Both the position numbers and the translations under genes were made by a program. A stretch of 46,396 nt of DNA, from IMG/VR virus record IMGVR_UViG_3300044739_000012, positions 1 to 46,396 of that record; one strand, given 5' to 3'. Below, piece by piece: positions 6,693 through 42,100 of this stretch; the first letter of the stretch is position 1; each line of letters begins with the position of its first letter. The DNA is from a virus. The notes beneath the pieces were generated by a model. The model ran no database searches and had not been told where the DNA came from. It worked only from the letters and a program-made list of their open reading frames with translations.

Positions 6693-7799
6693 ATGGCCCA
6701 CATCCGCAAGCTGAAGTCGGGGAAGTGGCAGGCCACGGTCCGCCACCCCTCCGGGCAGCGGTTCTCCAAAGCGGACCCGTTGAAGCGGGTCGTGCAGCAA
6801 TGGGCTGCGGATAAGGAGGCCGAGCTCAGGCGGGACGAGTTCGTCGACCCGAAGGCCGGGAAGGTCACGCTCGAGGTGTGGTGGGAGAAGTGGTCGGCGG
6901 TCCAGCCCTGGGCTGCTGTCACCCGCGACAAGAACGGTTCGTGGTGGCGGAACCACATCAAGCCGGCGTTCGGGTCGTGGCCGCTGAACTCGATCAACTC
7001 ATGGGACGTGGAGGGGTGGGTGGCGGGGATGACGGCGGGACCGACCACGGTGGCGTCGTCGCTGCGGCTGCTGAAGCAGATCCTCTCCGCCGCAGTGAAC
7101 TCCCGGCCGAAGCTGCTCACCGCCAACCCAGCGGCGGAGGTGTCAGCCAAGACACCCCCTGAGCATGAGGACCGGTACCTGACCCGCGACGAGGCGCAGC
7201 GGCTGCTGGCGGAGTTCACCGGTGAGGCGCGGCTATTCGTCGAGGTGCTCGTGTACTGCGGCCTCCGGTGGGCGGAGGCGGCGCACCTGAAGGCGTTCCG
7301 GGTGGACCTACTGCGGAAGCGTCTGCAGGTCGTCCAGGTGCGGGACAGGCGCGGCAACGAGAAGGGGCCGAAGTCGAAGGCCGGAACTCGCCCGGTCCCG
7401 CTGACCGACGAGCTCGTGACGGGGCTGTCGCGGCTGATCTCGGCACCGGACGAGTCGCTGGTGTTCACCTCACCGGAGGGTGAGCACTTGCGCTATGACA
7501 ACTGGCTGCGGCGGGTCTGGTATCCGGCGCTGGAGCGGGCGGGGCTGGCGGATCCGCAGCCGACGCCTCATGACCTGCGGCACACCTACGGGTCGTGGCT
7601 CGGTGAGGCGGGGATGCCTGCCAGTCAGATCGCCGCGCTGATGGGGCACGCGGGGCTGCGGTCGGTGGAGCGGTACATCCACGCCACCGAGGCGCGGTTC
7701 GATCAGGCGAGGGACGCGTTGGGCGTACCCTCAAACAAGAGTGCCCGGCACAGCGGCAAGGCTGTACCGGGCTTATCGACGCTCAAGGAGTCGACATGA
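6693..7799 (+). CDS. int: Tyrosine integrase
   Basis: A 368-residue phage integrase. It has an N-terminal arm-binding region (residues 1-55), a SAM-like core-binding domain (about 58-150) and a catalytic domain (about 160-340). The catalytic residues are visible: Arg192 in GLRWAE, a Lys in the KSKAGTRPVPL strand, His293 and Arg296 in TPHDLRHTYG, His319 in LMGHAG and Tyr328 in VERYIHA. It inserts the phage at attP, which lies 440 bp downstream. The stop overlaps the start of the next gene (ATGA). Confidence 0.96.
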   Translation: MAHIRKLKSGKWQATVRHPSGQRFSKADPLKRVVQQWAADKEAELRRDEFVDPKAGKVTLEVWWEKWSAVQPWAAVTRDKNGSWWRNHIKPAFGSWPLNSINSWDVEGWVAGMTAGPTTVASSLRLLKQILSAAVNSRPKLLTANPAAEVSAKTPPEHEDRYLTRDEAQRLLAEFTGEARLFVEVLVYCGLRWAEAAHLKAFRVDLLRKRLQVVQVRDRRGNEKGPKSKAGTRPVPLTDELVTGLSRLISAPDESLVFTSPEGEHLRYDNWLRRVWYPALERAGLADPQPTPHDLRHTYGSWLGEAGMPASQIAALMGHAGLRSVERYIHATEARFDQARDALGVPSNKSARHSGKAVPGLSTLKEST

Positions 7800-13194: not shown

Positions 13195-13545
13195 TCAGTT
13201 GGTGTCGTCCAGTTCGCCGAGCAGCATCCGCAGCACGCCGTTCATCTGCCGGCTCAGGGCTTTCACCTGCGCGAGGGTCTGCGGGTTCGTCGGGGCAGCG
13301 AGGGCAATGAAGTCCCGGTTGCCCTTCATCGCCTGCACCGCCTGGTTCCGCAGCGTCTCCTCGGTGGCGTTGCGGGAACCCATCCGCTGCTGCACCGCCG
13401 ACTTCACGTCATCGGACAGGTCGGACTCGAACTCCACCTCGAGCTCGCCCTCCTCGATCCATTGCATCCCCACGATCGGGACCGTGGTGAGGTCGGAGAA
13501 CTCGCCGTCGGTCACCGGCCGCTGGGGTTTGCCCTTGATCTTCAC
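13195..13545 (-). CDS. Small tail-region protein, 116 aa
   Basis: It starts at GTG 13545, overlapping the minor tail gene by four bases. The first 35 residues contain PQRPVTDGEFSDLTTVPIVG; the rest is helical with a charged middle and QTLAQVKALSRQMNGVLRML. Proteins of this size and place often follow minor tail genes in actinophages, with unknown function. A chaperone or small virion part is possible. Confidence 0.72.
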   Translation of the reverse strand: MKIKGKPQRPVTDGEFSDLTTVPIVGMQWIEEGELEVEFESDLSDDVKSAVQQRMGSRNATEETLRNQAVQAMKGNRDFIALAAPTNPQTLAQVKALSRQMNGVLRMLLGELDDTN

Positions 13546-15179
13546 CGCTTACGGTTCCGCTTCTTCGCCAGCACCCACATCGCTCGCGCCTCCGTCTGGG
13601 TGAACATGTCCAGTTCCAGTGTCGCGACCCCGTCGCTGTTGCATTCGACGGACACGATCCGGAACACGGTGATGCCGTCCCAGGTCGCGGCGCCGGTGAT
13701 CTGATGGGAGGCCTCGATCCCCCGGACGCGGATCAGCTTGCCGGGCACGATCTGCCACGGCATCACCGTCCGGCCGTTGATGTCCATGATCGGCCGGGCA
13801 ACCGTCAGGGTCCCGACGCTGTACGGACCGGCGTGCTCACTGAGGAACGTGTCGGCTGCCGCGTTGGCGTTCGACGCGGAACCGACCTCGTCACCCAGGT
13901 CGATATAGCCTTCCCGGACCAGGCCCTCGTCGTCCAGTGCGGGGACAACCTGGGTCTTGGTGAGCACCCTGGTGATCCCGCGGGAGTCCTTGTAGCGGAC
14001 GTTGATCTTGTTGTACATCTCGAACGTCGGCGCCGGGTTGTCGAACCCGTCAATGACCGACGCCTCGTACTGCGGCGTGGTGGGCCAGTTCGACCATTCG
14101 AACCGGTACTTGCCCGCGGCGTTCGATTCCCAAGCGGCCCAGTAGGCGGCGGGCTCGAGCTTCATCAGGTCATCTAGCACCTGATTGGGGGTGACCGCGT
14201 CCTCGTAGGCCAGCTGGTCGATATCGATGGTGTCGAGGGCGTTGAACTCCGCGCCTGGTCCGTCGAACTGGGACAGCATTCCCCGGCCCAGTAGGTCGGC
14301 GATCACCCACGAGGCATGGACGAAGAACGAAGACACCATTCCCGCGGAGCCGGACACGGACACGCCGTTGACGTCCACCCGCCGGCCGAGGACCCGGATG
14401 TTCGAGAACGCGATCCACCGGATGTCGTCGGTGATAGTGACCGCACCGGCGGACGAGTTCGTGAGGCGGATGAACGCCACATCCCTGCCCGCGGGGATGT
14501 CGGTGACAACCCAGCCGGTGAAGGACCCGCCCGCGGTGTTGCCCGTCGCCGAGAACGGCGTCTCGAGGTGTGTCCCGCCGACGCCAGACCCCAGTTGCGC
14601 GCTCCACGTGCTGCTGGTGAACCCCGCGTCCCAGGAGAACCCGATGGCGCCGAAGAACATCCCGGTCCCGACGAGCACGTCATACGCGGCGGCGGCTCGG
14701 GTGCTGTTGACGACCGGCAGGCCCGGGCCGAACTGGCACAGGATGACGTCGAGCGAGTTGGTGGTCGGGTGGTTGGTGGCCGTCACCTGACAGGCAGCGG
14801 GCATGAGCGCGCCTTCGGTGGTGCTGCGCCGCCACGGCTCCAGCCGCCGGTCGATGTAGACCAGCGGTGAGATCTCGTCGCTGGTGTGCGACGACGGGCC
14901 AATGGCGGTGAGCGACCACACCTGCCCCTGATCCCCAGCCGTACGGCCGGACATCTGCAGGCGGCCCTCCCACAGCACGGCCCCGTCCCGGCCGTCGTAG
15001 ATGTAGACCCTCGTGAAGGGCGCCAGCATCGGATCGTTGACGTCGATCGGGCTCTGCAGCGAGAACGACGCGGACGCATACCCGCCGGGGACGATGGAGC
15101 GCCACGACAGGCCTGACAGCTTGTCGGTGATGTGAACGTCGGCCTTGCTGCTCGACAGCCGTACCGTGATGGGGATCAT
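13542..15179 (-). CDS. Minor tail protein
   Basis: A 545-residue protein. The N-terminal 200 residues match the style of actinophage minor tail proteins (FTRVYIYDGRDGAVLWEGRL, then a GYASASFSL segment), a fold related to baseplate hub proteins. The middle section (about 200-300) is beta-rich and carbohydrate-binding-like (FTGWVVTDIPAGRDVAFIRL), and the C-terminal third is again hub-like. It probably forms the tail tip with the 463-residue protein encoded upstream, to which it is coupled by four bases. Confidence 0.82.
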   Translation of the reverse strand: MIPITVRLSSSKADVHITDKLSGLSWRSIVPGGYASASFSLQSPIDVNDPMLAPFTRVYIYDGRDGAVLWEGRLQMSGRTAGDQGQVWSLTAIGPSSHTSDEISPLVYIDRRLEPWRRSTTEGALMPAACQVTATNHPTTNSLDVILCQFGPGLPVVNSTRAAAAYDVLVGTGMFFGAIGFSWDAGFTSSTWSAQLGSGVGGTHLETPFSATGNTAGGSFTGWVVTDIPAGRDVAFIRLTNSSAGAVTITDDIRWIAFSNIRVLGRRVDVNGVSVSGSAGMVSSFFVHASWVIADLLGRGMLSQFDGPGAEFNALDTIDIDQLAYEDAVTPNQVLDDLMKLEPAAYWAAWESNAAGKYRFEWSNWPTTPQYEASVIDGFDNPAPTFEMYNKINVRYKDSRGITRVLTKTQVVPALDDEGLVREGYIDLGDEVGSASNANAAADTFLSEHAGPYSVGTLTVARPIMDINGRTVMPWQIVPGKLIRVRGIEASHQITGAATWDGITVFRIVSVECNSDGVATLELDMFTQTEARAMWVLAKKRNRKR

Positions 15180-16567
15180 GTCGTAGCCGGCCGGGCGACC
15201 GAGACGTATCTGGGCCAGTACCTGCAGGTCATGGAGATGCTGGTCGTGAGCAGGTTCGAGGTGGGAGCGGCCTGCCCCTTGGTTGTCTCGACCATCACCA
15301 GACGGTTATTGCCTGGTACCACCCGGGGTAGACGGCCCGTGATCGCGGATGTCCTGGTGGCGGACCTGCCGGGGGTCGCGCCGGTGATGACCGTGGCCAC
15401 GTATGTGCTGGAGTTCGGGCCGTCGATCACCCCCAGGTCGGTGGTGGCGTTCACGTCAGTGAAGGCAGCCCATGACCCGAAGCACTCATCCGCTGGGACG
15501 AACGCCAGATAGTCGATGTCAAGACTTCCAGTGCCGGACGTCCGGCCCGCGCTGAGGAACAGGCCCGCCTGATCCTCGATGCGGTACTCGGCAGCCGCGT
15601 AGCCACCTACCGTCGACAGGCCGCAGGTGGAATCCAGGGTCCCCAGGTCAACGAGTTGCGGTTGAGTCTGAGACTGGAGGATCACAGACCGGTTGTCGAT
15701 TCCGACAGACCTGACCGACATGGTGATCACGTCGGTCGCGACAGTCTGGGCAACCCTCGCGAAGACCCTGTAGACACCCCAGTTTTCCGCACCAGCGGGA
15801 TCGGTCAAGGCGGGGAAGTTGCTGGCGAGGCGAGGCGTGTGGGTCGCGGACGAAGTAAAGGTGGTCCGGGTCTTACTGCCCCCGGACATCGCCGCATCTG
15901 CCACCACTGTCGTGTCCGGGACGGCCAAGCCCATCGACTCGGCCTGGTGGAACCGGTTCGGGTACGGACTCGAACCCCACCGGACACCGACCGCGAACCC
16001 GGACCGCTGCAGGCCCGCTGCGCCGTCCGCGTACTCGATGAACAGCGGGGTCTCCACGTCACCCTTGATGCCGGTCAGGTCCGCGAACAACCCGTTCGTC
16101 AACGTCGGGTCGTTCCGGACCGTGATCGCGGCGATGTCCTCGCGCAGCCCGAGGGCGAACGGCTCCGCGAGGATCGTGACCTTCACCTGCTTGCGGGTGA
16201 TGTCCCACCGGACGTTGTCCGGGGAGGTGCGGAAGGTGCGGAAGAACACGGTGTTCGACAGGCCACCTGCGGTGTACTGAAGGATGTTCCTCTCCCGGTC
16301 GAGTTCCCGCTGGAGCAGCTGCAACTGGGTGGCGGCAGTGTCCGCGACACCCGACCCCAACTCCAGGGTGAGGTTGAGTTCCCGGTTCCCGTACGACGAC
16401 GCGGCCACATGGTCGCCGTCGCGCAGCATCGACGAAGACACGGTGCGCCGGATCGGCGGGATCCCGAAACTCGTCTCCGCACCCATGGCCCAAGTGGTTA
16501 TGTCATTCAGGTTCAACCTGACTGTCGGTGAGGCCTGGATCGAGTCGACAAACCTCAGGACAGCCAC
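15176..16567 (-). CDS. Distal/minor tail protein
   Basis: A 463-residue protein directly after the tape measure gene, the usual place of the distal tail (Dit-like) protein. The first 170 residues (NRELNLTLELGSG, LLQRELDRERNILQYT, DNVRWDITRKQVKVTILAEP) look like the Dit belt domain of siphophages. The rest is beta-rich and could be a carbohydrate-binding extension. It would link the tail tube to the tip. ATG 16567. Confidence 0.82.
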   Translation of the reverse strand: MAVLRFVDSIQASPTVRLNLNDITTWAMGAETSFGIPPIRRTVSSSMLRDGDHVAASSYGNRELNLTLELGSGVADTAATQLQLLQRELDRERNILQYTAGGLSNTVFFRTFRTSPDNVRWDITRKQVKVTILAEPFALGLREDIAAITVRNDPTLTNGLFADLTGIKGDVETPLFIEYADGAAGLQRSGFAVGVRWGSSPYPNRFHQAESMGLAVPDTTVVADAAMSGGSKTRTTFTSSATHTPRLASNFPALTDPAGAENWGVYRVFARVAQTVATDVITMSVRSVGIDNRSVILQSQTQPQLVDLGTLDSTCGLSTVGGYAAAEYRIEDQAGLFLSAGRTSGTGSLDIDYLAFVPADECFGSWAAFTDVNATTDLGVIDGPNSSTYVATVITGATPGRSATRTSAITGRLPRVVPGNNRLVMVETTKGQAAPTSNLLTTSISMTCRYWPRYVSVARPATT

Positions 16568-16577
16568 AGGTCGCTCC

Positions 16578-19500
16578 TCATCCGTTGCTCATCTGCAGTA
16601 GGTACGAACCGTTCGTGCCGGACTGGGTCAGCCGGAACGTGGCGTCACTGATCGCCTTGCCGACCTCTTTGCCGACCAGGCGGGCGGCCTCGGGAGTGAG
16701 GTTCATCGCCTGGTCGGTGCGGGTCAGCGGCTCGGGCTTGCCGGTCTGGTTGTCCACCACAGACTTGCCGGTGGGCAGATACCCGGCGTTGTCGAACAGC
16801 AGGCTCTTGGCGAACTTGCCGACCGGTCCACCCATCGCCATACCGTTGACACCCAGACGGTCCAGACGGCTCTGCACCGAGGCCCGCTGGGACGCCGAGG
16901 ACTTGTTCCCGATACCACCGCCCAGACCGTTCCCACCGCGCAGGTAGGACTGCACCTGACGCTTCGCCGAGGGGGATGCTGAGGAGTCGCCGATCGCGAT
17001 GGAGTGGATGTGGTGACCCCATGGCCCTTGGGCCGGCGTGCGGTGCCATGCGGCGAACCCGGCCCTGCGCAGCGCGGACTGGGCGAGACCCCAGCCACGT
17101 GGACCGTTGGTGTCCATCGCGCCACCACCGGAGTGAGTACCGCCGGAGGCTGCGACGCTGGTGGAGTAGGAGCCCTGGGTGATGTGGAACGCGGCGCCCA
17201 GGATCTTCTCGGCGTTCAGCAACATGCCGATGGTGCGTGTGTTCAGCTTCTTGCCGCGGAAGGTATGCACGCTCCCCGGGGGACCGCTCGGACCCATCGA
17301 AGCGAGGCTCGCCGCGAACTGGTTGCCGAGGGTCTGCGCCATCGGCTTCGCCACCGCCACAGCAACCCGGGTGACGTTGGCCGCGAACGCATCGGTCGGC
17401 GGAAACTTCGTCTTGACGGTGACGCCCCCACCGGCCGCGAACCCGCGCAGTTCACCGGCCAGCGCAGCCTGCCGAAGCCGCTTCATCGGGCCATGGCCGC
17501 CGACTGCCGCTGTCTCACGGGTCGTCCACACATGCTCGTCGGGCATCAGCAGGGCAGGCACGGAGTCCTTGCCCCGCTCGCCGCCGAACACCCCACCACC
17601 GGCCGCGAGACCGATCGGACGGTTGCCGAGCCGCTTGTCTACCGACGTGCGCCGGGCCTGCTGCGCGGCCAGAACGATTGGGGTGATCTGGATAGTCTGG
17701 TCGTTGATCCCGCCGAGGCTCGTGTTCACGGAGTTCCGGAACTTCTGGAACTCGGTCTTCGCGCCCTTCAACTTGTCACCCAAACCGGGGACCCAGCCGA
17801 AGGCCTTCGCGGCGGCGTTGAGGATGTTCCCCGCGAATTCGAGGACCTTGTTCACCACGAACCGTAGCGCCGACTGGGCAGCGGTCTTGATCGCGTCCCA
17901 GTTGCGGGCGATGAGAATGACGGCCAGCCCGAAGGGGCCGGTCAGGATCCCCAGCAGCAGCGGCCAGTTCGACTTGACCCAGTCGATCGCGGTCTTCACG
18001 GCGCCAACGACAGCGCTAAAAACGCCGACCGCGATGTCGCGGACTTTCCCGAAGACAGCGTTGACGATGTCGCGGAAAGTCTCGGACTTCTTGTAGGCGT
18101 ACACCAGACCGGCAGCAAGGCCGACCAGGGCGAGCAGGACGATGCCGATCGGGTTCAGCGACATCACCAGGTTCAGCGCGGCCTGCACTGCCGCGTAGGC
18201 CTTGGTCGCTGCGCCCACGATCGTGAGCGTCAACTGGTAGGCCTGGAACGCGACGACCATCGCACCGACGCCAATAGCCACAGCTCCGACAAGGGTGGAG
18301 TTGTCCTTCAGCCAGCCGGTGAAATCCTTGATCGCGGGCAGGACGGTCCCGACGATGCTGGTTCCCAGCGACATGACAACGGGTGCGAGCTTCTCGAACA
18401 CGCTCACCACGGCCGCGCCTACGTCCTTCGCCAGCGGTGTGAACGCGGCGATCAGGTTCTGTACGGCAGGGACGACGTTGTCGACCAGGAAGCCGCCGAA
18501 CTCCTTGAGCTTCGGAAGGATCTCTGTCTGAACAAACCCACCGAAATCTTGCAGGCGCGGAAGTACTTCCGTCTGAATGAACCCGCCGAAATCCTTTAGG
18601 CGTGGTAGAACCTCCGCCTGGAGGAAGCCGCCGAACTCCTTGAGCTTCGGGCCGAGGTAGGCACCGATCTTGTCGGCCAGTCCCCCGATGGTGGGGATCG
18701 CCTTGTCACCGAGGAACGTGGCGAACTTGTCGACGGTCGGCAGCAGGAACCCGCCGACCTTCTCGGCCAGGTTCCCGGTGATCGTCTGCAACCTCGACAG
18801 AGGATCAGCAGCAGCAGCGGCGGCGCCGCCGAACTCCTTGCCGACCTCGCCGAGGATGATCTTCTGCGCGCCGAGCGTGTTGCCCGATGCAACGAGGGTC
18901 TTGATCTGCTCCTTCTGCTGAGCAGTGAAACTCACACCCACCTTCGACAGTGCGGTGACACCCTTGACCGGATCGTTCAGCGCCTTGCCCAGTTGGATGT
19001 TCGCGGCCTTCAGACCGTTCGCGTCGACGACACCGTTGTTCATCGCCGACGCCATGTCCACAGCCGCGGCGGTGGCGCGGGTGAAGACGTCGTTGCCCTT
19101 GCCGACGCCGTTGCGGACGTTGGTGAACGTGGCCAGCAGGTTTTCACCCGACTGGATCGCCTCGTCATCGGCGCCGGTCTTGTTGCTGATCGCCGTGGCG
19201 AGGTCGCCCATCGACTTCGCTGTGATGCCCGCGACCCCACCGGTGGACTTGATCACCGCTTCGGAGACGCGGGCCACCTTGGCGGACTCGCGGGCGTCGT
19301 TGATGAACGACCCAAACACCTGGGCGCTCTTGATAGCGGCGAACCCGGCAACGAACAGACCCGCGGACTTGGAGGCGATCCCACCAAAGACGCCACTGAA
19401 GCCGACGCCGAATCGGGAGGCTACCTGCTTGCCAGCTCCATCCCCGTCGACCTTCTTGAGCTTGCCCTCGACCGCTTCTTTCGGCTTGAAGAGTTTGCTG

Positions 19501-19955
19501 AAACTCTGCGTGAAGCGGTTCCCGGTCTTCGCGCCCACCTGATCGGCGGACTGAGCGACCTTCGACTGGGCGTCACTCAGCGATGATGCGGCCTTCTTCG
19601 CCGCATCCGTCGCCGACGCCGACTTTCGCATCGCGGCAGCGACAGCCTCTTCGGCGGCAGCGATCTGTGATGCCTTGGACTTCGAGTTGGCGCGTACCTC
19701 GGCGAGCTTCGCCTCCGCGACTCGGAGTTTCCCTGCGGCGTCCGCCTGGACTCCGGCCGCAGATGCGACCTTCTTGGTGAGATCCTCGACCTTTCCCTTC
19801 GCGGCGGCGGTCGCCGCGTCGGTGAAGATCTTGCCGGAGTTCTTGCCGGCGGCACGGAAGAGACCCTCAGCACTCCCCAGGCCCTTCTTGGTCTCGGGTC
19901 CGAACTTCGACATCTCTGGTCGCACTGTCACAAAAATGTCTGTCAGTGAAGCCAT
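16578..19955 (-). CDS. Tape measure protein with a C-terminal peptidase-like domain
   Basis: A 1125-residue protein from ATG 19955, which overlaps the chaperone stop (TAATG); the longer reading to 20030 is not needed. It starts with a coiled-coil region (about 30-150), then hydrophobic segments (about 570-690). Around residues 438-495 a 16-residue unit (LKEFGGFLQAEVLPR type) is repeated four times. Residues about 895-990 contain THSGGGAMDTNG and HHIHSIAIGD, like an M15-type zinc peptidase. By the usual 1.5 angstrom per residue, the tail would be about 165-170 nm long. Confidence 0.93.
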   Translation of the reverse strand: MASLTDIFVTVRPEMSKFGPETKKGLGSAEGLFRAAGKNSGKIFTDAATAAAKGKVEDLTKKVASAAGVQADAAGKLRVAEAKLAEVRANSKSKASQIAAAEEAVAAAMRKSASATDAAKKAASSLSDAQSKVAQSADQVGAKTGNRFTQSFSKLFKPKEAVEGKLKKVDGDGAGKQVASRFGVGFSGVFGGIASKSAGLFVAGFAAIKSAQVFGSFINDARESAKVARVSEAVIKSTGGVAGITAKSMGDLATAISNKTGADDEAIQSGENLLATFTNVRNGVGKGNDVFTRATAAAVDMASAMNNGVVDANGLKAANIQLGKALNDPVKGVTALSKVGVSFTAQQKEQIKTLVASGNTLGAQKIILGEVGKEFGGAAAAAADPLSRLQTITGNLAEKVGGFLLPTVDKFATFLGDKAIPTIGGLADKIGAYLGPKLKEFGGFLQAEVLPRLKDFGGFIQTEVLPRLQDFGGFVQTEILPKLKEFGGFLVDNVVPAVQNLIAAFTPLAKDVGAAVVSVFEKLAPVVMSLGTSIVGTVLPAIKDFTGWLKDNSTLVGAVAIGVGAMVVAFQAYQLTLTIVGAATKAYAAVQAALNLVMSLNPIGIVLLALVGLAAGLVYAYKKSETFRDIVNAVFGKVRDIAVGVFSAVVGAVKTAIDWVKSNWPLLLGILTGPFGLAVILIARNWDAIKTAAQSALRFVVNKVLEFAGNILNAAAKAFGWVPGLGDKLKGAKTEFQKFRNSVNTSLGGINDQTIQITPIVLAAQQARRTSVDKRLGNRPIGLAAGGGVFGGERGKDSVPALLMPDEHVWTTRETAAVGGHGPMKRLRQAALAGELRGFAAGGGVTVKTKFPPTDAFAANVTRVAVAVAKPMAQTLGNQFAASLASMGPSGPPGSVHTFRGKKLNTRTIGMLLNAEKILGAAFHITQGSYSTSVAASGGTHSGGGAMDTNGPRGWGLAQSALRRAGFAAWHRTPAQGPWGHHIHSIAIGDSSASPSAKRQVQSYLRGGNGLGGGIGNKSSASQRASVQSRLDRLGVNGMAMGGPVGKFAKSLLFDNAGYLPTGKSVVDNQTGKPEPLTRTDQAMNLTPEAARLVGKEVGKAISDATFRLTQSGTNGSYLLQMSNG

Positions 19956-20613
19956 TACGGTCCCACCCCCAATGCGGCCAAGAGTTGGGCCTTGTCGCGG
20001 TCGATGACTTCCGGCTCGGACTCGAGCCACTCGTCGAACTGGTCGACCCTCTGGCCGAGGGTCACCTCAGCGCCAGCGGAGATCTCAGCCAGTTCGATCG
20101 CCTGCTGGTAGTCGACCTGCAGCGAGTAGACGACGTCGCACAGGTCGGCGAGGCTCAGCCCGTCTGCTGGCGTAGTACCGCCATCGCCAGGTCCGGGCGG
20201 CCCTGAGACTTCAAGCGCTGCACCACCTCGAGCGCGGATGAGTCTTCCGCGGAGGTAGGCGTGGTTGACAGCGGCCCAGGCGAGGAGTCGGAGGGCCGCC
20301 TGGTAGGGCGCTCGGACAGGATCGCCATGACGTCCTTGACGACCTGCATCAGCTCCTCGTCGTCGGCGCGCGTCTTGTCGGCGTGCGCCTCGAACTTGCC
20401 CCAGTCCTCGTCGGCGATGCACTGCTGCAGCAGGTCGTACATCGCCGCCAGACCGTCCTCGTCGGCGGAGTCGACACCGGACTTGGCGATCTTCGCGAAC
20501 CGCATCAGCGGCATCAGCCCGATCTTGTCCGCGACGGCGAACTCGGCGCCCATGAAGCCGACCCGCCGCACCTCCCGCTCCGGGGGAGTCTCCGCTACCA
20601 CTTCGAGCGGCAT
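19955..20613 (-). CDS. Tail assembly chaperone, frameshifted long form
   Basis: The second frame (ending in TAA at 19955) has no good start of its own. It becomes protein-like at PYQAALRLLAWAAVNHAYLRG, near 20310. A -1 shift from the 20155-20613 frame in the stretch encoding SERPTRRPSD would join them. This is the known G/GT arrangement between major tail and tape measure genes. I see no canonical X-XXY-YYZ slippery heptamer, so the exact slip site is not determined. Confidence 0.7.
20155..20613 (-). CDS. Tail assembly chaperone, short form
   Basis: A 152-residue protein from ATG 20613 (PLEVVAETPPEREVRRVGF), starting right after the major tail gene. It is helical, with FAKIAKSGVDSADEDGLAAM and DLLQQCIADEDWGKFEAHAD, in the style of actinophage G proteins. 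It ends with a Ser/Thr/Pro-rich section. It binds the tape measure protein during tail assembly in related phages. A start at 20664 would lie inside the major tail gene. Confidence 0.85.
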   Translation of the reverse strand: MPLEVVAETPPEREVRRVGFMGAEFAVADKIGLMPLMRFAKIAKSGVDSADEDGLAAMYDLLQQCIADEDWGKFEAHADKTRADDEELMQVVKDVMAILSERPTRRPSDSSPGPLSTTPTSAEDSSALEVVQRLKSQGRPDLAMAVLRQQTG

Positions 20614-20614
20614 A

Positions 20615-21205
20615 TCAGGAACCGAGCCGCGCGGCGCCGGCGGAGTACACGGAGAACACCGCACCGGACGGCGGGACCTCGAAGTTGAACGTGCACGGGA
20701 TGCCCGCGAACGCCGGGGCCTTCTGGAACTCCATGGCGACCTCGCCGCCCTGGATGGTCTGGCGGATCACGATGCGGGTGGTGTTGTCGCTGGACTCCCA
20801 GCCGATCATCACCCGGATCTCAGACCCGGGAGCGACGGGCTCGAACAGCCCCATCGCGGTAGCGCCGGAACCGGTCGGGGTGATCGTGCTCACGCCACCG
20901 TTTAGGGCGCGCTTCAGGTTATGCAGGGTGACGTTCGCGAGAGCGAACGTCATGTTGCCCGAGCGTTCCGTGGTGGCGTACTTGATCGGGTCGAAGAACT
21001 CAGCGACCGAGATCGCTTCGACAGTCGAAGAATAGGAGAAGGTCGAGCCTTCCTTCGTGGCACCGAGCGACAACCACGCCACCGGCCAGGCGTCCGTGAA
21101 GACGGACCCTGCGACGGTGTTCGCCGGCACGGTGGAGAGGAGCGGGGCGATGTACAGGTAGCCAGGATCGGTGAGCAGGGTGGGGACTGCGGTGGCACCG
21201 GGCAT
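20615..21205 (-). CDS. Major tail protein
   Basis: A 196-residue protein, beta-rich, in the standard place between tail terminator and chaperone genes. The order VAWLSLGATKEGSTFSYSST, then VAEFFDPIKYATTERSGNM and TFNFEVPPSG, fits siphophage tube subunits. It forms the stacked hexamer rings of the tail tube. ATG 21205. The next gene starts two bases after its stop. Confidence 0.87.
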   Translation of the reverse strand: MPGATAVPTLLTDPGYLYIAPLLSTVPANTVAGSVFTDAWPVAWLSLGATKEGSTFSYSSTVEAISVAEFFDPIKYATTERSGNMTFALANVTLHNLKRALNGGVSTITPTGSGATAMGLFEPVAPGSEIRVMIGWESSDNTTRIVIRQTIQGGEVAMEFQKAPAFAGIPCTFNFEVPPSGAVFSVYSAGAARLGS

Positions 21206-22272: not shown

Positions 22273-22602
22273 CTACCCTCCCGTGATCCTGAAGCAGAGG
22301 ACTTCCTGATGGTGCGCACGACCACGCACCCGCCAGACCTCAGGCACTCCGTCTACCTCGTAGTCCAGCCCGAGGTGGCGCAGCCGGTCTGTGGCCTTCA
22401 CGTCCGCGTCAGCGGGCAGGAACGCTCGGTGGGTGGAGTTCGTCCGCTGCTGTGCCACCACGTCTTCGGTGGAGGTCAGCGGCTGGAGTTCGCCCGGGTA
22501 GTCCGTGGTCGTGGCGGTGGTCCAGTTGGGAAGCGGGTCTCCGCCATCGGGGGAGGCGGTTGTGCCAGCCCGGACCACCGTCACGACGTCACGGAACCTC
22601 AT
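22273..22602 (-). CDS. Head closure (stopper) protein
   Basis: A 109-residue protein beginning MRFRDVVTVVRAGTT, a typical opening for head-tail joining/stopper proteins (SPP1 gp16-like), with YPGELQPLTSTEDVVAQQR and HLGLDYEVDGVPEVWRVRG. It would plug the portal-adaptor channel after packaging. In most siphophages it directly follows the adaptor gene; here 4.4 kb of extra structural genes separate them. Confidence 0.78.
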   Translation of the reverse strand: MRFRDVVTVVRAGTTASPDGGDPLPNWTTATTTDYPGELQPLTSTEDVVAQQRTNSTHRAFLPADADVKATDRLRHLGLDYEVDGVPEVWRVRGRAHHQEVLCFRITGG

Positions 22603-22605
22603 GGG

Positions 22606-23160
22606 TCAGACCCCGAGGAACTTGGCGTTCCAGGTGATGACGAGCGTGTCTGACGCGGTCTTGTTGATCGCGGTGAACACGACCCGGTGCGAGGTGTTGG
22701 CGGCAGTCGTGGTCAGGTCCGTGGCGGCATCGTTGACGATGACCGCTTCGGTGATCGCGGCGTTCGTCACGTCACCCGGGGCCCAGGTCGTCTTGTACTG
22801 ACTGTTGACGCCGAGCCCCGCGCCCAGGTTCTGGGTGGCCGGGAAGGACGCATCGAACGGGTTGTTCGAACCGGTGATGTACGTGACCAAGGCCGAGCCG
22901 GCGCCCGCCTTTGAAGCGGCAGTGGTGCCGGTGCCGAGCTTCATGCCGGTCATCTTGGTCGGCTGCGCGGGCGCCGCCGGGGTGACCAGGCCGATCGCCA
23001 TGCCTGCGTAGTACAGGTCACCGGCGTCGGTGATCAGGTTGTCAGCGCGGCGCTCATCCTTGAGGTCGCCGTTCTCGTCGAACAACTGGATGAGGAGATT
23101 CCCCTTGAAGCCCTCGGGCTCCTCGGTCTCCTCCACGGTGATCGGGTCGTTGTCTGACAC
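22606..23160 (-). CDS. Predicted virion surface protein
   Basis: A 184-residue protein from GTG 23160. It begins with an acidic segment (DPITVEETEEPEGF), then a domain with LLIQLFDENGDLKDERRADN and DLYYAGMAIGLVTP, followed by beta-rich segments (MTGMKLGTGTTAASKAGAG, HRVVFTAINKTASDTLVITW). This looks like a phage structural protein of the type that sits on heads or fibres. It is the last gene of the five-gene insertion between adaptor and stopper. Confidence 0.68.
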   Translation of the reverse strand: MSDNDPITVEETEEPEGFKGNLLIQLFDENGDLKDERRADNLITDAGDLYYAGMAIGLVTPAAPAQPTKMTGMKLGTGTTAASKAGAGSALVTYITGSNNPFDASFPATQNLGAGLGVNSQYKTTWAPGDVTNAAITEAVIVNDAATDLTTTAANTSHRVVFTAINKTASDTLVITWNAKFLGV

Positions 23161-23181: not shown

Positions 23182-25065
23182 TCATGGGCGGACTGTGATG
23201 CCGCCATCGGGGCGGACAGTGATGCCGTTGGATGGGCGGCTGGTGCGCCCACTCGACGGACGAGCCGTAGTCGTGGTGAATGGTCGGGGCGTGATGCCCG
23301 TGTTCGGTCGGGGCGTGATGTGCGGAACCGGGACCACGGTGGTCACGAGTGCCGCATCAACCAGCCCGGATGAATCGGTCAGGCTGCGCAGTTGCTCGAA
23401 GGCCGCCGCGTCAGCGAGCCCCACGAGATCGGTGAGGATGGACGCACGCGCGATAGCGGCGGCATCTGTGAGCCCTGCGCTGTCCGTTGCCGTCTGATCC
23501 CGCAGAAGCCCAATCAGGGCCGCATCGGTGAGCCCAGCGGAGTCGGTGGCGATCTTGCTGGCAGCGAAGGCGGCGGTGTCCACCAGGCCCGCCGAGTCGG
23601 TGACCCCACGAGTTTGACTGAGCGCCTGCGCATCGGTGAGACCGACCGAGTCGGTCTGGTTGAGCGCCCTGCCGGACTCGATGAGCGAGGTGTCCGTCAG
23701 GCCGGCTGAGTCCGCGATGGTCTTCGACTGGGCAAGCCCTGCCGCATCGGTCAGGCCGGTTGAGTCCGATACAGCCTTGGCCTGTGTGAGCGTGGCCGCA
23801 TCGGTCAAACCAGCAGAGTCGGTCTGTGCGAGCGCCTTGCCGGATTCGACCAGAGCGGTATCGGTCAGGCCCGCCAGGTCCGTGAGCACCGGGGAGACGG
23901 TGAGCGCGGTGGCATCGGATAGGCCGACAGAGTCTGTGACGAGCTTCGATTGGCTGAGTAGTGCGGAGTCCGTCAACCCCGCCGTGTCGGTCTGGGTGAC
24001 CGGAACGGAGAGCCCGACTGTCGCCGAGTCGGTGAGCCCGGACGAGTCTGTAGCGACCAGCGATACGGACAGTGCTGCCGTGTCGGTCAGTCCGGCGCTG
24101 TCCGTCAGGGACTTCGACTGAACCAGTGCTACGCCGTCCGTCAGTCCGGCGGAGTCGGTTACGCCCTTGGTCTGGGCTAGAACCGCCGCGTCCGTCAGCC
24201 CGGAGGAGTCGGTCTGAAGCACCAACTTCGATGCTTCAACCAAGGCCGAGTCGGTAAGGCCAGCGGAGTCGGTTACATCCTTCGACTGGGTCAGTACCGG
24301 ACCATCGGTTAGGCCCGTCGAGTCTGTCTGGTCGACAGCGAGCGGCGCGCTACCGGTGCGGACGAGTTCGACCAGGTACATCTCCGCCGAGGTCGAGGCG
24401 GTGAGGCTGGTGATGCTGTCCGGAGTGAAAGTCGTGGTCCCGTGAGTACCGGACAGGTCGTCGTAGATGACTACCGACGTACCGCCTGCGCCCCCTGTGG
24501 AGAACTCGGCTCGCTTGACGAACCCGGTCGGGGTGGACGCAGGGGCGACGGTGGACCCGACCCGCTCCATGAAGACCAGGACGAACCCGGACCCGACAAC
24601 CTGAGGGGTGATCGTCGGAGACGTGTGCACCGTCACCGCGGTACCGGACGCTTCACCCAGCGGAACAACCTGCTGGACGTCGCTATACCCGTTCCAGATG
24701 CCGAGTGCTGCAGCCTGCCTGTTGCCCGTCCCTGTGGTGGAGATCGCCACATCGCCGGACTCGGACCCGGTCATCACCGACGGGATGCGCTTGGCCAGGA
24801 CCGCGCGCAGGTTCGTGTCGATCAGGTCCTGTATGACCGTGAACGCGGCGTCGATCGACGCGGTCTCGGTGTTGAGGCTGGCGTGGGCCAGAAGCGCCAG
24901 GTCATCCGGGCCATGGGTGGGCCAGGTGACCCCGGTCAGGGTCGTGACGCTGGTGGTCAGCGTGCTCGTGTCGGCGGCAACGAAGGTCCCCGCGGAGACT
25001 GTGCCGATCAGCCGGCGGGGGCGGACGTAGTGCTGCGACCGCCATGGTCGGCGGAACACGGCCAT
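23182..25065 (-). CDS. Large structural protein with 18 TDSAGLTD repeats
   Basis: A 627-residue protein. Residues about 1-225 form a beta-rich domain ending in MYLVELVR, similar in layout to the 25560-26315 product. Then come 18 tandem repeats of 18 or 20 residues, each starting with TDSAGLTD or a near variant. The 20-residue units fall at every third place in most of the array, giving a 56-residue super-repeat. The last 45 residues are six octads of T-x-R-P-x-x-G type, strongly basic. It is most probably a fibre on the virion. No ribosome site is evident; its ATG follows the upstream stop, so it may use reinitiation. Confidence 0.82.
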   Translation of the reverse strand: MAVFRRPWRSQHYVRPRRLIGTVSAGTFVAADTSTLTTSVTTLTGVTWPTHGPDDLALLAHASLNTETASIDAAFTVIQDLIDTNLRAVLAKRIPSVMTGSESGDVAISTTGTGNRQAAALGIWNGYSDVQQVVPLGEASGTAVTVHTSPTITPQVVGSGFVLVFMERVGSTVAPASTPTGFVKRAEFSTGGAGGTSVVIYDDLSGTHGTTTFTPDSITSLTASTSAEMYLVELVRTGSAPLAVDQTDSTGLTDGPVLTQSKDVTDSAGLTDSALVEASKLVLQTDSSGLTDAAVLAQTKGVTDSAGLTDGVALVQSKSLTDSAGLTDTAALSVSLVATDSSGLTDSATVGLSVPVTQTDTAGLTDSALLSQSKLVTDSVGLSDATALTVSPVLTDLAGLTDTALVESGKALAQTDSAGLTDAATLTQAKAVSDSTGLTDAAGLAQSKTIADSAGLTDTSLIESGRALNQTDSVGLTDAQALSQTRGVTDSAGLVDTAAFAASKIATDSAGLTDAALIGLLRDQTATDSAGLTDAAAIARASILTDLVGLADAAAFEQLRSLTDSSGLVDAALVTTVVPVPHITPRPNTGITPRPFTTTTARPSSGRTSRPSNGITVRPDGGITVRP

Positions 25066-25068
25066 GGG

Positions 25069-25554
25069 CTACACGAGTTCGAGGACGTCGACCGAACCCT
25101 GAATGGTGGAGATCGAGTCAGCCGGTGCGGAGACCGACAACACCAGCCGGGTCCCGGCGTCCAGGATGATGCGGCATTCCGGGACGGGCAGGTACAACTG
25201 CGGCTGACGGACGTTCCACGACCAGCGTCTCAACTCGACCGAGGTGCCGCCGGTGAGTTGGGTCGTGTTGCCCGTTTCGAGGGTCGCACCCGCTGCGGCG
25301 TCGTTCGGTTGCATCGGCTGGAAAGCCGCCGTACCGCCACCGGAACCTGACGTGGGTGCGCCGGTGACACGCTTCAGGATGAGGGTCAGCATCTCTTCCT
25401 GCGCATCGCCGATCTCCGATGTCTGGCCGATCTCGAACCCTGCCAGGGTCAACGGTTTGCTGGTCGCAGCGAGCAACTCGAACACGTCGATCGCTGCCGT
25501 GAACGCGGCGGAGATGTTGATGGGCGCCGAGTAGGCGCGCACATTGATGGGCAT
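25069..25554 (-). CDS. Predicted virion protein, 161 aa
   Basis: I chose ATG 25554 with GAGGTGA upstream; the longer reading to 25662 lies within the preceding gene. The protein contains IDVFELLAATSKPLTLAGFE, LTLILKRVTGAPTSGSGGG and QLYLPVPECRIILDAGTRLV, a jelly-roll-like set of strands. It is a beta-rich structural protein in the five-gene insertion, maybe a trimeric fibre part or cap. No family can be named with confidence. Confidence 0.7.
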   Translation of the reverse strand: MPINVRAYSAPINISAAFTAAIDVFELLAATSKPLTLAGFEIGQTSEIGDAQEEMLTLILKRVTGAPTSGSGGGTAAFQPMQPNDAAAGATLETGNTTQLTGGTSVELRRWSWNVRQPQLYLPVPECRIILDAGTRLVLSVSAPADSISTIQGSVDVLELV

Positions 25555-30079: not shown

Positions 30080-31537
30080 CTACGGGCGGGGGAGTTCGAT
30101 GACCGGCGCGGAGTCGGTCGGGACCAGGGCGGGTGGCGGTATGACGACCGGGGGCGGCGGCGTTGCGGCCTCGACCTCGGCATCGTGCGCGGCCTGCATC
30201 TCGGCGACCTTCTCTGGCGGGTACTGCCAGATCGAGGTCATCTTCTCGGCCCACGGGATGTCCGTGCCGGCCTTCGATGCAGCATCGGCACGTTCGGCCA
30301 GCGAGTAGCGGACCTCGGGCTCCCAGATGGTGCGCAGCGAGGTCAACTCGGAGCGCGCCTTGTCGCCCTGGAAGCGGAACGCGAGCGCCATCACCTGGTT
30401 CCAGCTTGGCTCCGCGCGCCTGCGACGGTCCTTGGCCTTGAAGACCAGACCTTCGCGCATCTGCTCGGCGCCCATCGCGGACCCGTTCGCTGCGTCAGGT
30501 GTGATGTAGAACAGCGGCGTACGGGTCACTGCGGCGAAGTGCTGGATATCGTCCTTCACCGAGCTGAGGATCGGCTGCAGGTCGACCTGCCCGGACTCCC
30601 AGATGTCCGCCGTGGCGGGGAGCCGCCACAGTGCACCCGGGTCAGCGGAGAAGATCTTGTCGTAGTCGATGACCTCGCCCGTGTCGGGATCCTTCTCGGG
30701 CATGTCCTCTGGGTCGACCTTCAGAACCCGCTGCTTGAACGCCTGGAACGTGGCGATCACCATGCGCTGCAGGATCATGTGATTGATCCGGTCCAGCACG
30801 TCGATGTGGGTCTCGAACTCACCCAGCCCCGACTTGTTCCGGAACCTCACCAACGGCATCGCAGTCTCATTGCCGTCAGGCAGCGCCAGACCATCGGCAC
30901 CGCCTCGGTCGGCGTCCCATTCCCACCCGCTCGACGAGAAGCGGACCGATGGGTGCTTGGTCGTATACCGCGCTTCGCGGGAGGCAACGAACACGTGGCC
31001 CGGCATGTAGAGGTAGGCGAAGTCGCGCTCGAGTTCGGGGTCATGGAAGAACTTCGCGCCGGCGCGGATCTTGCGCTGCTGCACCGGATCGTGGAACGAC
31101 ACCACCTGGCGCGGATCCTCGGCAGTGATGACCGGGATGCCGGTCTCGGGGTCCGGTGCGCCGACAATGACATACCCGTCTCGCAGGACCAGCATGTTGC
31201 GGTGGACCTCGGTGGCCTCCACATCCAGCCCGTTGGCAACCCAGATCTTGCGGGCCTCGGCGTCTCCTGCCTCGTCGCCCTCGGCCCCGGTCTGGAACCC
31301 GACCGGGATCATCCGGTCCAGCACTGCGTCGACGGCGAGCTCGGCCAGGTTCAGGCGGGCCTTCTTCTGGAACGCCTTGTACGCCGACTGTGCGTTCTCC
31401 GCACCCTCGGGAAGAGGCGGGTTGCCGCGGTAGTGGCGGTCCAGGAGCTCCAGGTCCGGCTGCTTGTACTCGAGTTTGCGGGCCAGCCGCAGCATCCACC
31501 AGCCGGGAGACAGGGCCGTCTCTACGTCGATCGGCAC
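30080..31537 (-). CDS. Portal protein (SPP1 gp6-like)
   Basis: A 485-residue protein from GTG 31537 with GAAGGGAGG upstream. It has the Phage_prot_Gp6 pattern: LDRHYRGNPPLPEG, a NLAELAVDAVLDRMIPVGF segment, RDGYVIVG, and RTPLFYITPDAANGSAMGAE near residue 340. It forms the dodecameric ring for DNA entry. No MuF-type gene follows it before the scaffold, which is unusual for this family. Confidence 0.92.
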   Translation of the reverse strand: MPIDVETALSPGWWMLRLARKLEYKQPDLELLDRHYRGNPPLPEGAENAQSAYKAFQKKARLNLAELAVDAVLDRMIPVGFQTGAEGDEAGDAEARKIWVANGLDVEATEVHRNMLVLRDGYVIVGAPDPETGIPVITAEDPRQVVSFHDPVQQRKIRAGAKFFHDPELERDFAYLYMPGHVFVASREARYTTKHPSVRFSSSGWEWDADRGGADGLALPDGNETAMPLVRFRNKSGLGEFETHIDVLDRINHMILQRMVIATFQAFKQRVLKVDPEDMPEKDPDTGEVIDYDKIFSADPGALWRLPATADIWESGQVDLQPILSSVKDDIQHFAAVTRTPLFYITPDAANGSAMGAEQMREGLVFKAKDRRRRAEPSWNQVMALAFRFQGDKARSELTSLRTIWEPEVRYSLAERADAASKAGTDIPWAEKMTSIWQYPPEKVAEMQAAHDAEVEAATPPPPVVIPPPALVPTDSAPVIELPRP

Positions 31538-31550
31538 GTTAACCCTCCCT

Positions 31551-33245
31551 TCAGCGGATGCGCCGCGGGATCGCGGGCCTTGTTGCCTTGCCGATGCCCT
31601 TGGAGACCGCGTCCACCCGCGCTGTCCAGGCGAGGACAGCTGCGATAGCGGCGTCGATCTTGTTGGGGGAGTCGGGATTCTCCTTGCTGATCTGCAAGCC
31701 GGCCCGTGAGGGCCGGCGGCGAGCGGCGAGGACGTGTCTGGTCAGGTGGTGCGACCCGTCGTGGGTCATCTCCCGGTCGGTGAGTGCGTTGTGAAACTCC
31801 CTCAGCGCCCTCACGGTGATCGAGGCGCGGCCACCGGTCATCCACCACTCACATGGATGTTCGCGGGAAGCCTTCACCTTGAGTTTGTCGCTGTAGGCCG
31901 CTTCCCACCCGGCGACGTAGGTCTCCCATTTCGCCGGGTCGCAGTAGAAGCCGACCACGTTGTAGCGGGAGAACGCCGACCGGACAGCGGCGTCAACCTC
32001 GACCGCGGGAACCTGCCAGTCGACGCCGGCCGGACCACTCGGTTGCTCCCAGACCTGGATCTCGAACAGGTGGCCATCGGAGACTCGGCATCCGATGAGC
32101 GCCGTTGCGTCCGTGACGCCACGGGCTCGCTTGCGCGAACCGTCGAAGCCGAGCGTGACCGGCTCTCTGTCGGCGGCGACCTTGTCAGCCGCGAGGCACG
32201 CCTTCCACTCGGGCTGCGTCACCCAGGCGTCGGTTGCCGATGTGGGCTGGTTCAAGTAGTAGCGGCGGGAGTCCGAGACATCGTTACGGGGGTCCCAGAT
32301 CTCGTCGATGATCCGTTGCAGATCCATCGACTCGGAGAACGGGCCGTACACCTCGCGGAGCGCATTGAGGAGTGACTTCTCGTCGGTCAGGTCCACATCC
32401 GCGGGCGCTTCGACGTGATCGAACAGGAGCCTCGAGCGCTTCGTCTTGCCGGCCATGATCAGCTTGGCGAGTTTGTGGCTCTCCTCGGCTACCGAATCCT
32501 CACCCGGCAGGTACATCGTCGAGGTCTCATGCGACCACGGCTCGGCGGACTTCCGCTTGGCGAGGTTCCTTCGCACCGTGGCGTACATCCGCCGCAACTC
32601 CGGAAGGATGTACAGGTGCGACTCGTCGAAGACCACGAAGGTCTCCTTGCCGCCGTCCTTCGCCGCGTTCGATGCGGTGGACGGGATGATCTCCCCGCCG
32701 TGCGGGAGCAGGGTCCGGGTAAGACCCGCCACATTGGAGGCGAGACCCTCTGAGAGCGGGCCCTCGGTGAGGTTGAAGTAGACGTTGTCGTAGGTATTCC
32801 CCGCCTGACCCTCTTCAGTGGCCAGGCAGCGGATCACCGGGTAGACGATCGGGCGGCCCATCGGTTCGCCCGGCTGGTAGGTGTAGGTGAAGTCGCGCCA
32901 CTTGAACTGCTCGCCACCCTTGGCGAACCCGGCGAACCGGCAAGGACCGAAGCCCTCGAGCAGCACCTCGAACCCGGCGAGCTCGGACTTTGCCCGGCCC
33001 TTCGCGCGCGAGGTGAAGACTGAGTCGTACATCCGGCGCCCGGTTGATTCGAGCGCGTAGTTGTCGACGATGATGCCGGCGAACTCGTCATCCAGCGGAA
33101 GAGAGTCACCAAGGTTCGGGTTCAGCGGGCGGCCCTGCACATCACCGGGGCCATGCACGCAGAAGTGTTCGATCCATGCCAATCCGAGCCAGCCGAGCGA
33201 CCTGTTGCGGTCGTGGCCTTCGGCCCGGATCAGTTCATGAGGCAT
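31551..33245 (-). CDS. terL: Terminase large subunit
   Basis: A 564-residue packaging motor. The ATPase domain has a Walker A-like loop in SRAKGRAKSE (Lys86) and Walker B in TFVVFDESH (Asp207, Glu208). The nuclease domain starts around VTLGFDGSR (Asp368) and continues with GFYCDPAKW and NKIDAAIA, the acidic residues of the RNase H-like site. It docks on the portal and pumps and cuts DNA. It overlaps the small terminase gene by 11 bases. Confidence 0.95.
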   Translation of the reverse strand: MPHELIRAEGHDRNRSLGWLGLAWIEHFCVHGPGDVQGRPLNPNLGDSLPLDDEFAGIIVDNYALESTGRRMYDSVFTSRAKGRAKSELAGFEVLLEGFGPCRFAGFAKGGEQFKWRDFTYTYQPGEPMGRPIVYPVIRCLATEEGQAGNTYDNVYFNLTEGPLSEGLASNVAGLTRTLLPHGGEIIPSTASNAAKDGGKETFVVFDESHLYILPELRRMYATVRRNLAKRKSAEPWSHETSTMYLPGEDSVAEESHKLAKLIMAGKTKRSRLLFDHVEAPADVDLTDEKSLLNALREVYGPFSESMDLQRIIDEIWDPRNDVSDSRRYYLNQPTSATDAWVTQPEWKACLAADKVAADREPVTLGFDGSRKRARGVTDATALIGCRVSDGHLFEIQVWEQPSGPAGVDWQVPAVEVDAAVRSAFSRYNVVGFYCDPAKWETYVAGWEAAYSDKLKVKASREHPCEWWMTGGRASITVRALREFHNALTDREMTHDGSHHLTRHVLAARRRPSRAGLQISKENPDSPNKIDAAIAAVLAWTARVDAVSKGIGKATRPAIPRRIR

Positions 33246-41178: not shown

Positions 41179-41327
41179 TCCTCCTTCTTGTCGGGGAACT
41201 GCAGGACCGTCGCGGGTCTGGCCGGGACCGCGGTCACGCCTCGCAGCTGCATGCGTCGCTTGGCTCGGCGTAGAGCTCTCGCCTGCTCGTAGAGGCGCCG
41301 GCCAGGGTTCGCCATTGGGTCTGTCAT
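41175..41327 (-). CDS. Small basic protein, 50 aa
   Basis: ATG 41327 overlaps the methyltransferase stop region, and its TGA overlaps the start of the replication gene. It is rich in Arg (RRLYEQARALRRAKRRMQLR) and ends with DKKEE. It might bind nucleic acid. Its end supplies the GAGGAG ribosome site of the next gene. Confidence 0.62.
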   Translation of the reverse strand: MTDPMANPGRRLYEQARALRRAKRRMQLRGVTAVPARPATVLQFPDKKEE

Positions 41328-42100
41328 ACGGCCACCCCTGAGCGCTCGTGGTGGTCGACGATCAGCCGGCCGATATGTTCGGCGACCTGGGGGACGACTG
41401 CGTTACCGAGGGCGTGGATTCGGTCCACCTGGGCGGGAACCCCATCAACCAGTCGAGCCACTCGGGGTTCACGAGCAAGCCACTCACTCGCTCGTTGCCG
41501 GCTTGGATGAACTGCCAAGCTAGGAAATCCTCTAGCTGCGACCGGTGATCGCCTGATTCCGCCCGCGCCCAGGCGATCCCGTGTGATCCCATTGACGCCC
41601 GCGGGGTAGGCCACGATGTATACCCGTTCACGCGGATGCGGCGCGCCGAAGTCGGACGCTCGTAGAGTTGCCCACTCCGCATCGAACCCGAGGCGGTGAA
41701 GGTCGCCAAGGACGGACCCGAAAGCCCCGGAATCTCGAACGAGAGCTGAGACGTTTTCCAACAGGACATAGGTCGGTCCCACTGCGCGTATGACTGCCTC
41801 GGTCTCGGGCCACATCCACCGCTCATCGTCGACTCCGAGCTTGTAGCCAGCGTCGGAGAATGGCTGGCAGGGGAACCCGCCACAGACAACGTGGACCTCT
41901 GGTCGCTGCTCTCCGAGCCACCAGTCAGGAGCGGTTCGGACGTCGTCATGGCGGGGAACCTCCGGCCAGTGGGTAGCGAGGACGTGGTTGCAGTAGGGGT
42001 CGAGCTCCACCTGTCCGACCGTGGTCATGCCGGCGCGCTCCAGCCCCAGTTCGAGACCGCCGATGCCCGAGAACAGGCTGAGGACGTTGAGGTCGGTCAT
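41324..42100 (-). CDS. DNA (cytosine-5) methyltransferase
   Basis: A 258-residue C5 methyltransferase. Motif I is LFSGIGGLELGLERAG, motif IV GGFPCQPFSD (catalytic Cys78), motif VI LLENV (Glu115), motif VIII RERVYIVA, and motifs IX/X DRIHALGNAVVPQ. The target recognition region between VIII and IX is very short (about 55 residues). No restriction enzyme is nearby, so it may protect phage DNA. The reverse complement contains no competing gene, but a second sense frame (41362-41949) is open and protein-like. Confidence 0.92.
   Translation of the reverse strand: MTDLNVLSLFSGIGGLELGLERAGMTTVGQVELDPYCNHVLATHWPEVPRHDDVRTAPDWWLGEQRPEVHVVCGGFPCQPFSDAGYKLGVDDERWMWPETEAVIRAVGPTYVLLENVSALVRDSGAFGSVLGDLHRLGFDAEWATLRASDFGAPHPRERVYIVAYPAGVNGITRDRLGAGGIRRSPVAARGFPSLAVHPSRQRASEWLAREPRVARLVDGVPAQVDRIHALGNAVVPQVAEHIGRLIVDHHERSGVAV
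41362..41949 (-). CDS. Overlapping ORF in the +1 frame of the methyltransferase gene
   Basis: A 195-codon frame from ATG 41949. Its second half reads SWPTPRASMGSHGIAWARAE, then LVNPEWLDWLMGFPPRWTES, close to a block I know from many phage methyltransferase-linked proteins (WPTP…NPxWVEWLMGFPxGWT). The same DNA in the main frame encodes the canonical VDGVPAQVDRIHALGNAVVP. No ribosome site is clear. I am unsure whether it is translated; see findings. Confidence 0.35.
   Translation of the reverse strand: MTTSEPLLTGGSESSDQRSTLSVAGSPASHSPTLATSSESTMSGGCGPRPRQSYAQWDRPMSCWKTSQLSFEIPGLSGPSLATFTASGSMRSGQLYERPTSARRIRVNGYTSWPTPRASMGSHGIAWARAESGDHRSQLEDFLAWQFIQAGNERVSGLLVNPEWLDWLMGFPPRWTESTPSVTQSSPRSPNISAG

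Follow-up and report, generated by a model that had tools for sequence, protein, structure and literature searches.

The stretch of viral DNA analysed here (46,396 bases from an IMG/VR record, referred to throughout as the window) encodes, among its head genes, a long protein composed largely of short tandem repeats. This raises the question of what such a protein does there: whether it is part of the virion and, if so, whether it belongs to the head or to the tail.

The repeat gene and its neighbourhood

The window phage is a temperate siphovirus with the gene order TerL, portal, major head protein (MHP), repeat cassette, head closure (Hc1), major tail protein (MTP), tape measure protein (TMP) and Dit-like. 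The repeat gene lies between a phrog_29 MHP and a phrog_501 Hc1 and so falls inside the structural (head) gene module, consistent with an earlier sequence-only reading that had called its product a structural protein. The principal features are:

6693-7799: integrase (PHROG match)
15176-16567: Dit-like gene (PHROG match)
16578-20030: tape measure (PHROG match)
20615-21205: major tail protein (PHROG match)
22273-22602, minus strand: head closure Hc1 (phrog_501, E 4e-14), the downstream head-module landmark
22606-23160, minus strand: conserved partner, 'NLIT' family, 184 aa (phrog_5417, PHROG E 8e-13), 21 bp downstream of the repeat gene
23182-25065, minus strand: GLTD-repeat protein (whole gene), 627 aa, ATG start; open reading frame with exact unit parse and relatives in other phages
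25069-25554, minus strand: 'SEIGDAQ' protein, about 160 aa, start inferred, directly upstream of the repeat gene; homologues adjoin repeat genes in L015, L041 and L043
25560-26315, minus strand: separate gene for a 251-aa probable β-sandwich protein; homologues adjoin repeat genes in L020, L043 and L047
27710-28744, minus strand: major head protein (phrog_29, E 2e-50), the upstream head-module landmark
30080-31537: portal (PHROG match)
31551-33245: large terminase (PHROG match)

The window portal has its best matches, at about 38%, among the portals of Gordonia, Mycobacterium and Rhodococcus phages, and an actinobacterial host is therefore likely. Elsewhere in the window, a 545-aa protein encoded downstream of the Dit-like gene (13542-15179) is without a PHROG match and is a possible baseplate or receptor-binding protein; the tape-measure gene contains a 45-bp tandem repeat of 3.4 copies (18489-18641); and two DNA methyltransferase genes (41324-42100 and 44156-44914) lie near an HNH endonuclease gene, beyond the terminase.

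The repeat gene itself divides into four parts:

24991-25065, minus strand: N-terminal basic arm, residues 1-25 (VFRRPWRSQHYVRPRRL...)
24328-24990, minus strand: predicted N-terminal β-sandwich domain, residues 26-246 (homologues, AF2 strands, BFVD matches)
23326-24327, minus strand: 18 tandem DxxGLTD units, residues 247-580, with an 18-18-20 super-repeat (56 residues) from unit 4
23185-23325, minus strand: C-terminal basic tail of T-x-R-P octads, residues 581-627, net charge about +6

When the 627-aa open reading frame (23182-25065) was cut at the motif, the unit starts spanned residues 247-563 and the 18 units had lengths of 18, 20, 18, 18, 18, 20, 18, 18, 20, 18, 18, 20, 18, 18, 20, 18, 18 and 18 residues, exactly as listed previously. 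In the window protein D2, G5, L6 and D8 are invariant in all 18 units, T1 is present in 16 and T7 in 14, position 12 is aliphatic or aromatic in every unit and position 18 is hydrophobic in 17. The earlier description of the units as almost all starting TDSAGLTD goes too far: the consensus is TDSxGLTD, and strict TDSAGLTD occurs in only 6 of the 18; similarly, the 'ALVES-x-ALxQ' ending ascribed to the 20-residue units is clear in two or three of them but not in the rest of the five. The basic tail was recovered as described, with six octads of the form T-x-R-P-x-x-G directly following the array. At the other end of the protein, the basic arm resembles, as judged by eye, the N-terminus of the L015 protein (VFRPGARIYYRPRRK...); it is missing in L002, L003, L005 and L006, whose proteins begin at the sandwich domain.

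The super-repeat and the predicted folds

A 168-bp spacing was first noticed as evenly spaced DNA-pattern matches in unrelated contigs, and a degenerate DNA pattern covering two adjacent 18-aa motifs gave 7 matches in the window against none in shuffles. In the window protein, 20-residue units lie three units apart more often than in shuffled arrangements (p = 0.014), which confirms the 56-residue super-repeat proposed from the sequence, and units 3n apart are more alike in their variable half, positions 9-18 (unit-shuffle p = 0.0086). The 18-18-20 super-repeat is also found in at least five other, unrelated phages (L009, L015, L018, L022 and L041). In the shuffle test the spacing of 20-mers by three gave p = 0.027 for L015, 0.034 for L018, 0.032 for L041 and 0.037 for L022, and was not significant in L009 and L020. 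The 20-mers are a unit type distinct from the 18-mers: over six phages the terminal residue is Q in 15 of 20 20-mers versus 4 of 51 18-mers, Q14 is found in 32 of 51 18-mers versus none of the 20 20-mers, and K or R occupies position 16 in 19 of the 20. Together, the recurrence of the super-repeat and the distinctness of the 20-mers indicate that the 56-residue unit is a conserved property of the protein family.

Where units encode the same amino acid, their codons differ silently in 60% of pairs, compared with 58% expected under random codon choice. Silent sites are thus saturated, which argues that the array is old and has been maintained at the protein level. In addition, TRF run on the window left the 18-unit array undetected, the octad tail being the only part of the gene that it found. 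These two results rule out recent DNA duplication as the origin of the repeats.

The repeats were modelled with AlphaFold2 (AF2) from 12 rows aligned in register without gaps. Another alignment, mixed and full-length, misplaced repeat rows in the N-terminal domain and was excluded from folding. Structure prediction, the check suggested by the sequence-only reading, gave a divided answer. The best of the five models (mean pLDDT 58, about 60-80 over units 4-15) has one strand in every covered unit, with the TDSAG stretch forming a turn, but the other four reached mean pLDDT values of only 30-38. The best model weakly suggests β structure in the repeats, the strands apparently forming an antiparallel meander. 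Compared with the PDB, it gave matches to β-barrels, which are antiparallel, none of them significant, and the repeats are without a sequence match to any solved repeat structure.

The β-solenoid envisaged earlier, a fibre with one turn per 56 residues, is not borne out by these models. The periodicity is real and conserved across phages, as a solenoid reading would have it, but the strands of the one good model in five look meander-like rather than coiled, and neither the weak barrel matches nor the sequence searches connect the repeats with a solved structure; such a fibre is considered improbable. It is a possible, if not a favoured, alternative that the repeats are an acidic flexible spacer without a fixed fold, in which the spacing is kept for length and solubility. 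The predominance of T, S, A, D and G in the repeat region fits a spacer, as do the four low-scoring models and the pLDDT of 28-44 for the octad tail in the best one; yet invariant D, G, L and D corners, two unit types with type-specific positions across six phages, and a strand in each covered unit of the best model all argue for a more definite structure.

For the N-terminal part, an AF2 model of residues 26-358 built from five alignment rows is β throughout and reaches pLDDT 70-90 over the domain's second half. Searched against BFVD, this model of moderate confidence gave 27 matches to predicted viral proteins at E <= 1e-3 (from 4e-6), nearly all with probability 1.00 and with TM by target of up to 0.67, several of them named minor tail protein. 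Residues 26-246 thus appear to resemble a phage virion β-sandwich of the minor tail protein type, in agreement with the β-rich domain noticed at the outset. The predicted folds of the minor tail proteins of the mycobacteriophages Hawkeye, Gaia, Shauna1 and Tweety resemble that of the sandwich (BFVD E about 1e-4 to 1e-3); these proteins differ in being only about 16% identical and annotated as tail proteins, whereas the window gene lies among head genes and its product has a long stalk of repeats. The sandwich model had no significant fold match in the PDB, and the domain no sequence match to solved structures. Comparison by hhalign of the fused sandwich with the separate 251-aa protein and with other N-terminal domains gave probabilities of at most 28%, which does not establish that these sandwiches share an ancestor.

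Four contigs encode homologues of residues 26-230, with 56-63% identity. In L002 the same domain is encoded in the head module and followed by a different repeat, while in L003, L005 and L006 a further kind of short repeat links it to a fused Sipho_Gp37-like tail protein (Pfam match computed on L005) downstream of the tape measure. The presence of other tandem repeats behind the same domain means that stalk repeats seem interchangeable, and its occurrence with other repeats and fusions indicates a mobile virion module that is independent of the GLTD array.

Further observations were made on these contigs. In L002:5998-7287 and L005:4992-6992 the N-terminal domain is followed by tandem repeats of the GSxxLSGxGxL and ATGDRTATASLTG type. 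Right before the N-terminal-domain relative in the L002 head module, a 331-aa protein is encoded (L002:4986-5981) that is glycoside hydrolase-like by eye and possibly a head-borne enzyme. The portal genes of G002, G003 and G004 (the contigs of L003, L005 and L006) each show one in-frame TGA, perhaps a match overrunning the stop.

Relatives and the partner gene

DNA-pattern and profile scans identified about 27 distinct IMG/VR contigs with real arrays, in which units are mostly of 18 or 20 residues; pattern matches in L010, L011, L014, L017, L023, L025 and L030, being D/G-rich frames or having too few motifs, were left out. An N-terminal β-sandwich-like domain, array and short tail make up the proteins of the window, L018, L022, L041, L059, L061 and L051; in L015, L043 and L047 the array has only a short, often basic N-terminus; and in L028/L016 it is fused to a phrog_1887 tail protein, near a gene that is lysin-like by eye. 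The arrays are net acidic in 36 of the 36 proteins tabulated. The basic tail is a recurring but not universal feature: C-tails are net basic in 20 of the 36, often with short repeats, and neutral or acidic in several relatives (L015, L022, L063 and L070). Octads of the T-x-R-P-x-x-G form are also found in the tails of L051, L061, L084 and L095. A hydrophobicity-period analysis of the variable half, in a simple version, was not decisive. A divergent relative of 1806 aa (L120:6805-12222) has about 35 units and basic tail repeats of roughly 10 residues (GSGRDYRDKGRDY), and adjoins a partner gene.

Part of the repeat family is already grouped in PHROGs (v4) as phrog_12240, of unknown function, which 10 of 19 repeat proteins match (best E 9e-20) and the window protein matches over its repeats (E 3e-7). 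The profile spans the repeats but neither the cassette nor the super-repeat, and no function or structure is attached to it. A match of residues 364-465 to Pfam LED_rpt (PF20854; E 6e-4, 20 bits) lies far below the curated cut-off of 59 bits and is shared by no relative that was scanned; it was put down to composition, and an NCBIfam serine-rich match far below its cut-off was also rejected.

The partner encoded at 22606-23160 is strongly conserved, with 42-85% identity to the window copy over ten phages, and about 21 of the 27 contigs found via repeats, by tally, have it inside the fetched locus. Scanning with a partner profile, which is independent of the repeats, gave 66 loci, 31 of which have three or more repeats in a chain within 6 kb; in a shuffled-protein control a chain of two was reached once and a chain of three never (0/66). 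At least eight further partner loci hold divergent arrays. Among 41 non-identical repeat loci, many of them fetched through the partner, it is present in 35, on the same strand in 35 of 35 and at a median gap of 761 bp; the six loci with no partner include several short fragments. No partner was seen in the stretches examined of L002, L003, L005 and L006, which share the N-terminal domain only. PHROG records no function for the partner's family, phrog_5417, and its link to the repeat protein is absent from the literature searched.

Two cultured actinobacterial genomes (L062 and G122) carry both genes. The prophage L062 of Actinoplanes italicus DSM 43146 has the order MHP, connector, repeat gene, partner and then a gene that is head-closure-like by eye, its MHP and connector having been named on the same sequence as L051. 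Within a set of 355 genomes from the Actinoplanes italicus family, two have the partner, both with the repeat gene adjacent; G122 was found in this set by the partner profile alone, and its repeat gene adjoins the partner. A tblastn search of 50,697 cultured-phage records, of which the window portal as a control finds 1,291 and so shows that the search works, gave no match for the repeat protein, for the proteins of L015 and L012 or for two partner proteins. Low-complexity filtering may conceal repeat matches in such a search, but hardly partner matches. As tblastn, at its sensitivity, finds no cassette in these records, isolate-based work would have missed it.

The cassette adjoins MHPs of five PHROG families (phrog_29 in the window, phrog_2263 in L018 and L059, phrog_267 in L047 and L051, phrog_10 in L061 and phrog_1005 in L053), and is next to the portal in L045 and the protease in L013 and L053. 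In most loci with identified neighbours these are MHP, portal, protease or connector genes, and the cassette precedes the major tail protein; whole-contig scans with PF05065 and phrog_104 were too narrow to place most cassettes. Its position beside five MHP families indicates that the cassette has either moved between capsid lineages or been kept through capsid replacement. The carriers are soil-type phages with unrelated heads.

A candidate head appendage

The main alternative to a head location is a tail-borne version of the same appendage, of the kind that L028/L016 at least appear to have. The protein would then be a minor tail protein or side tail fibre with stalk repeats, its gene standing by chance among head genes, and the sandwich or the tail would touch the host. 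The fusion of the array to the phrog_1887 tail protein in L028/L016, that of the N-terminal domain to the Sipho_Gp37 tail protein past the tape measure in L003, L005 and L006, and the BFVD matches named minor tail protein in mycobacteriophages all point in this direction. The two sets of fusions are evidence against a head-only reading, and the modules therefore apparently also serve on tails; as the tail protein is C-terminal in both sets, they suggest that the N-terminal sandwich is distal. The usual place of the cassette among head genes argues against a tail location for the window protein, gene position being indirect evidence, and such a location is considered rather unlikely.

A moron-like surface, secreted or assembly protein that is made late and is no part of the virion is very unlikely. 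Relatives do occur in prophages, the window phage has an integrase and the functions are unannotated (PHROG unknown), but no signal peptide or anchor was recognised by eye, relatives are fused to tail proteins, and the gene stands among collinear structural genes, always on the strand of its partner.

On balance, the repeat protein is probably a modular appendage of the virion, of the same type as head fibres or decoration proteins, that moves, with its partner, as a cassette. Such an appendage would comprise the basic N-terminal arm, the phage β-sandwich, 18 DxxGLTD units forming an acidic stalk and a short, repetitive basic tail, and would act together with the partner encoded next door. The pair would travel among phages with unrelated capsids, usually in the interval from MHP to head closure. 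The likely role of the appendage is to hold the sandwich domain out from the capsid, where it would contact the surface or the polysaccharides of actinobacterial cells and aid adsorption. Anchoring on the particle would fall to either basic end or to both, whether or not the partner takes part. Besides the fusions to tail proteins, the unstable fold prediction for the repeats, the neutral or acidic tails of several relatives and the six loci with no partner count against this reading. The repeat architecture, the conservation of the super-repeat, the place in the head module, the association with the partner and the recurring basic tail are observed; presence in the virion, and with it the attachment site, orientation, oligomeric state and stoichiometry, anchoring end and ligand-binding role, is inferred. 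A bolder proposal, put forward tentatively, is that the DxxGLTD stalk and the phrog_5417 partner make up a hitherto undescribed appendage system that spreads horizontally and fits capsids of at least five MHP families. In it the partner might be a universal adaptor or cap, and the stalk an acidic fibre of a new kind whose structural repeat is 56 residues long.

Environmental phages are rich in long repeat proteins of no known use, and one of them now has a defined architecture, a conserved partner and a place in the gene order; its host range is likely actinobacterial, and two cultured genomes allow it to be tested. Should the pair truly fit unrelated capsids, it would amount to a head-fibre module that is portable, of value for adsorption studies and as a display scaffold.

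No homology to known head fibres was found, whether as a solved-structure sequence match, a significant PDB fold match or a match to a Pfam decoration family. Known head fibres are not one family, so that the missing homology bars the status of homologue and not a head-fibre-like function. No paper on the motif or on the PHROG numbers emerged from the literature searches, and to our knowledge none of SPP1 gp12, phi29 gp8.5 and T4 Hoc has DxxGLTD units or a comparable partner; no sequence match to these three was found either. Their stalks are collagen-like (predicted) in gp12, coiled-coil in gp8.5 and Ig-like in Hoc, whereas the candidate has DxxGLTD units. These three proteins are precedents for head-borne adhesins: as the candidate would be, they are accessory, elongated head appendages tied to host adhesion, with repetitive or multi-domain stalks (PMC7602432). 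Elongated head-borne adhesins are therefore already known, and what appears to be new here is the stalk, its super-repeat and the partner.
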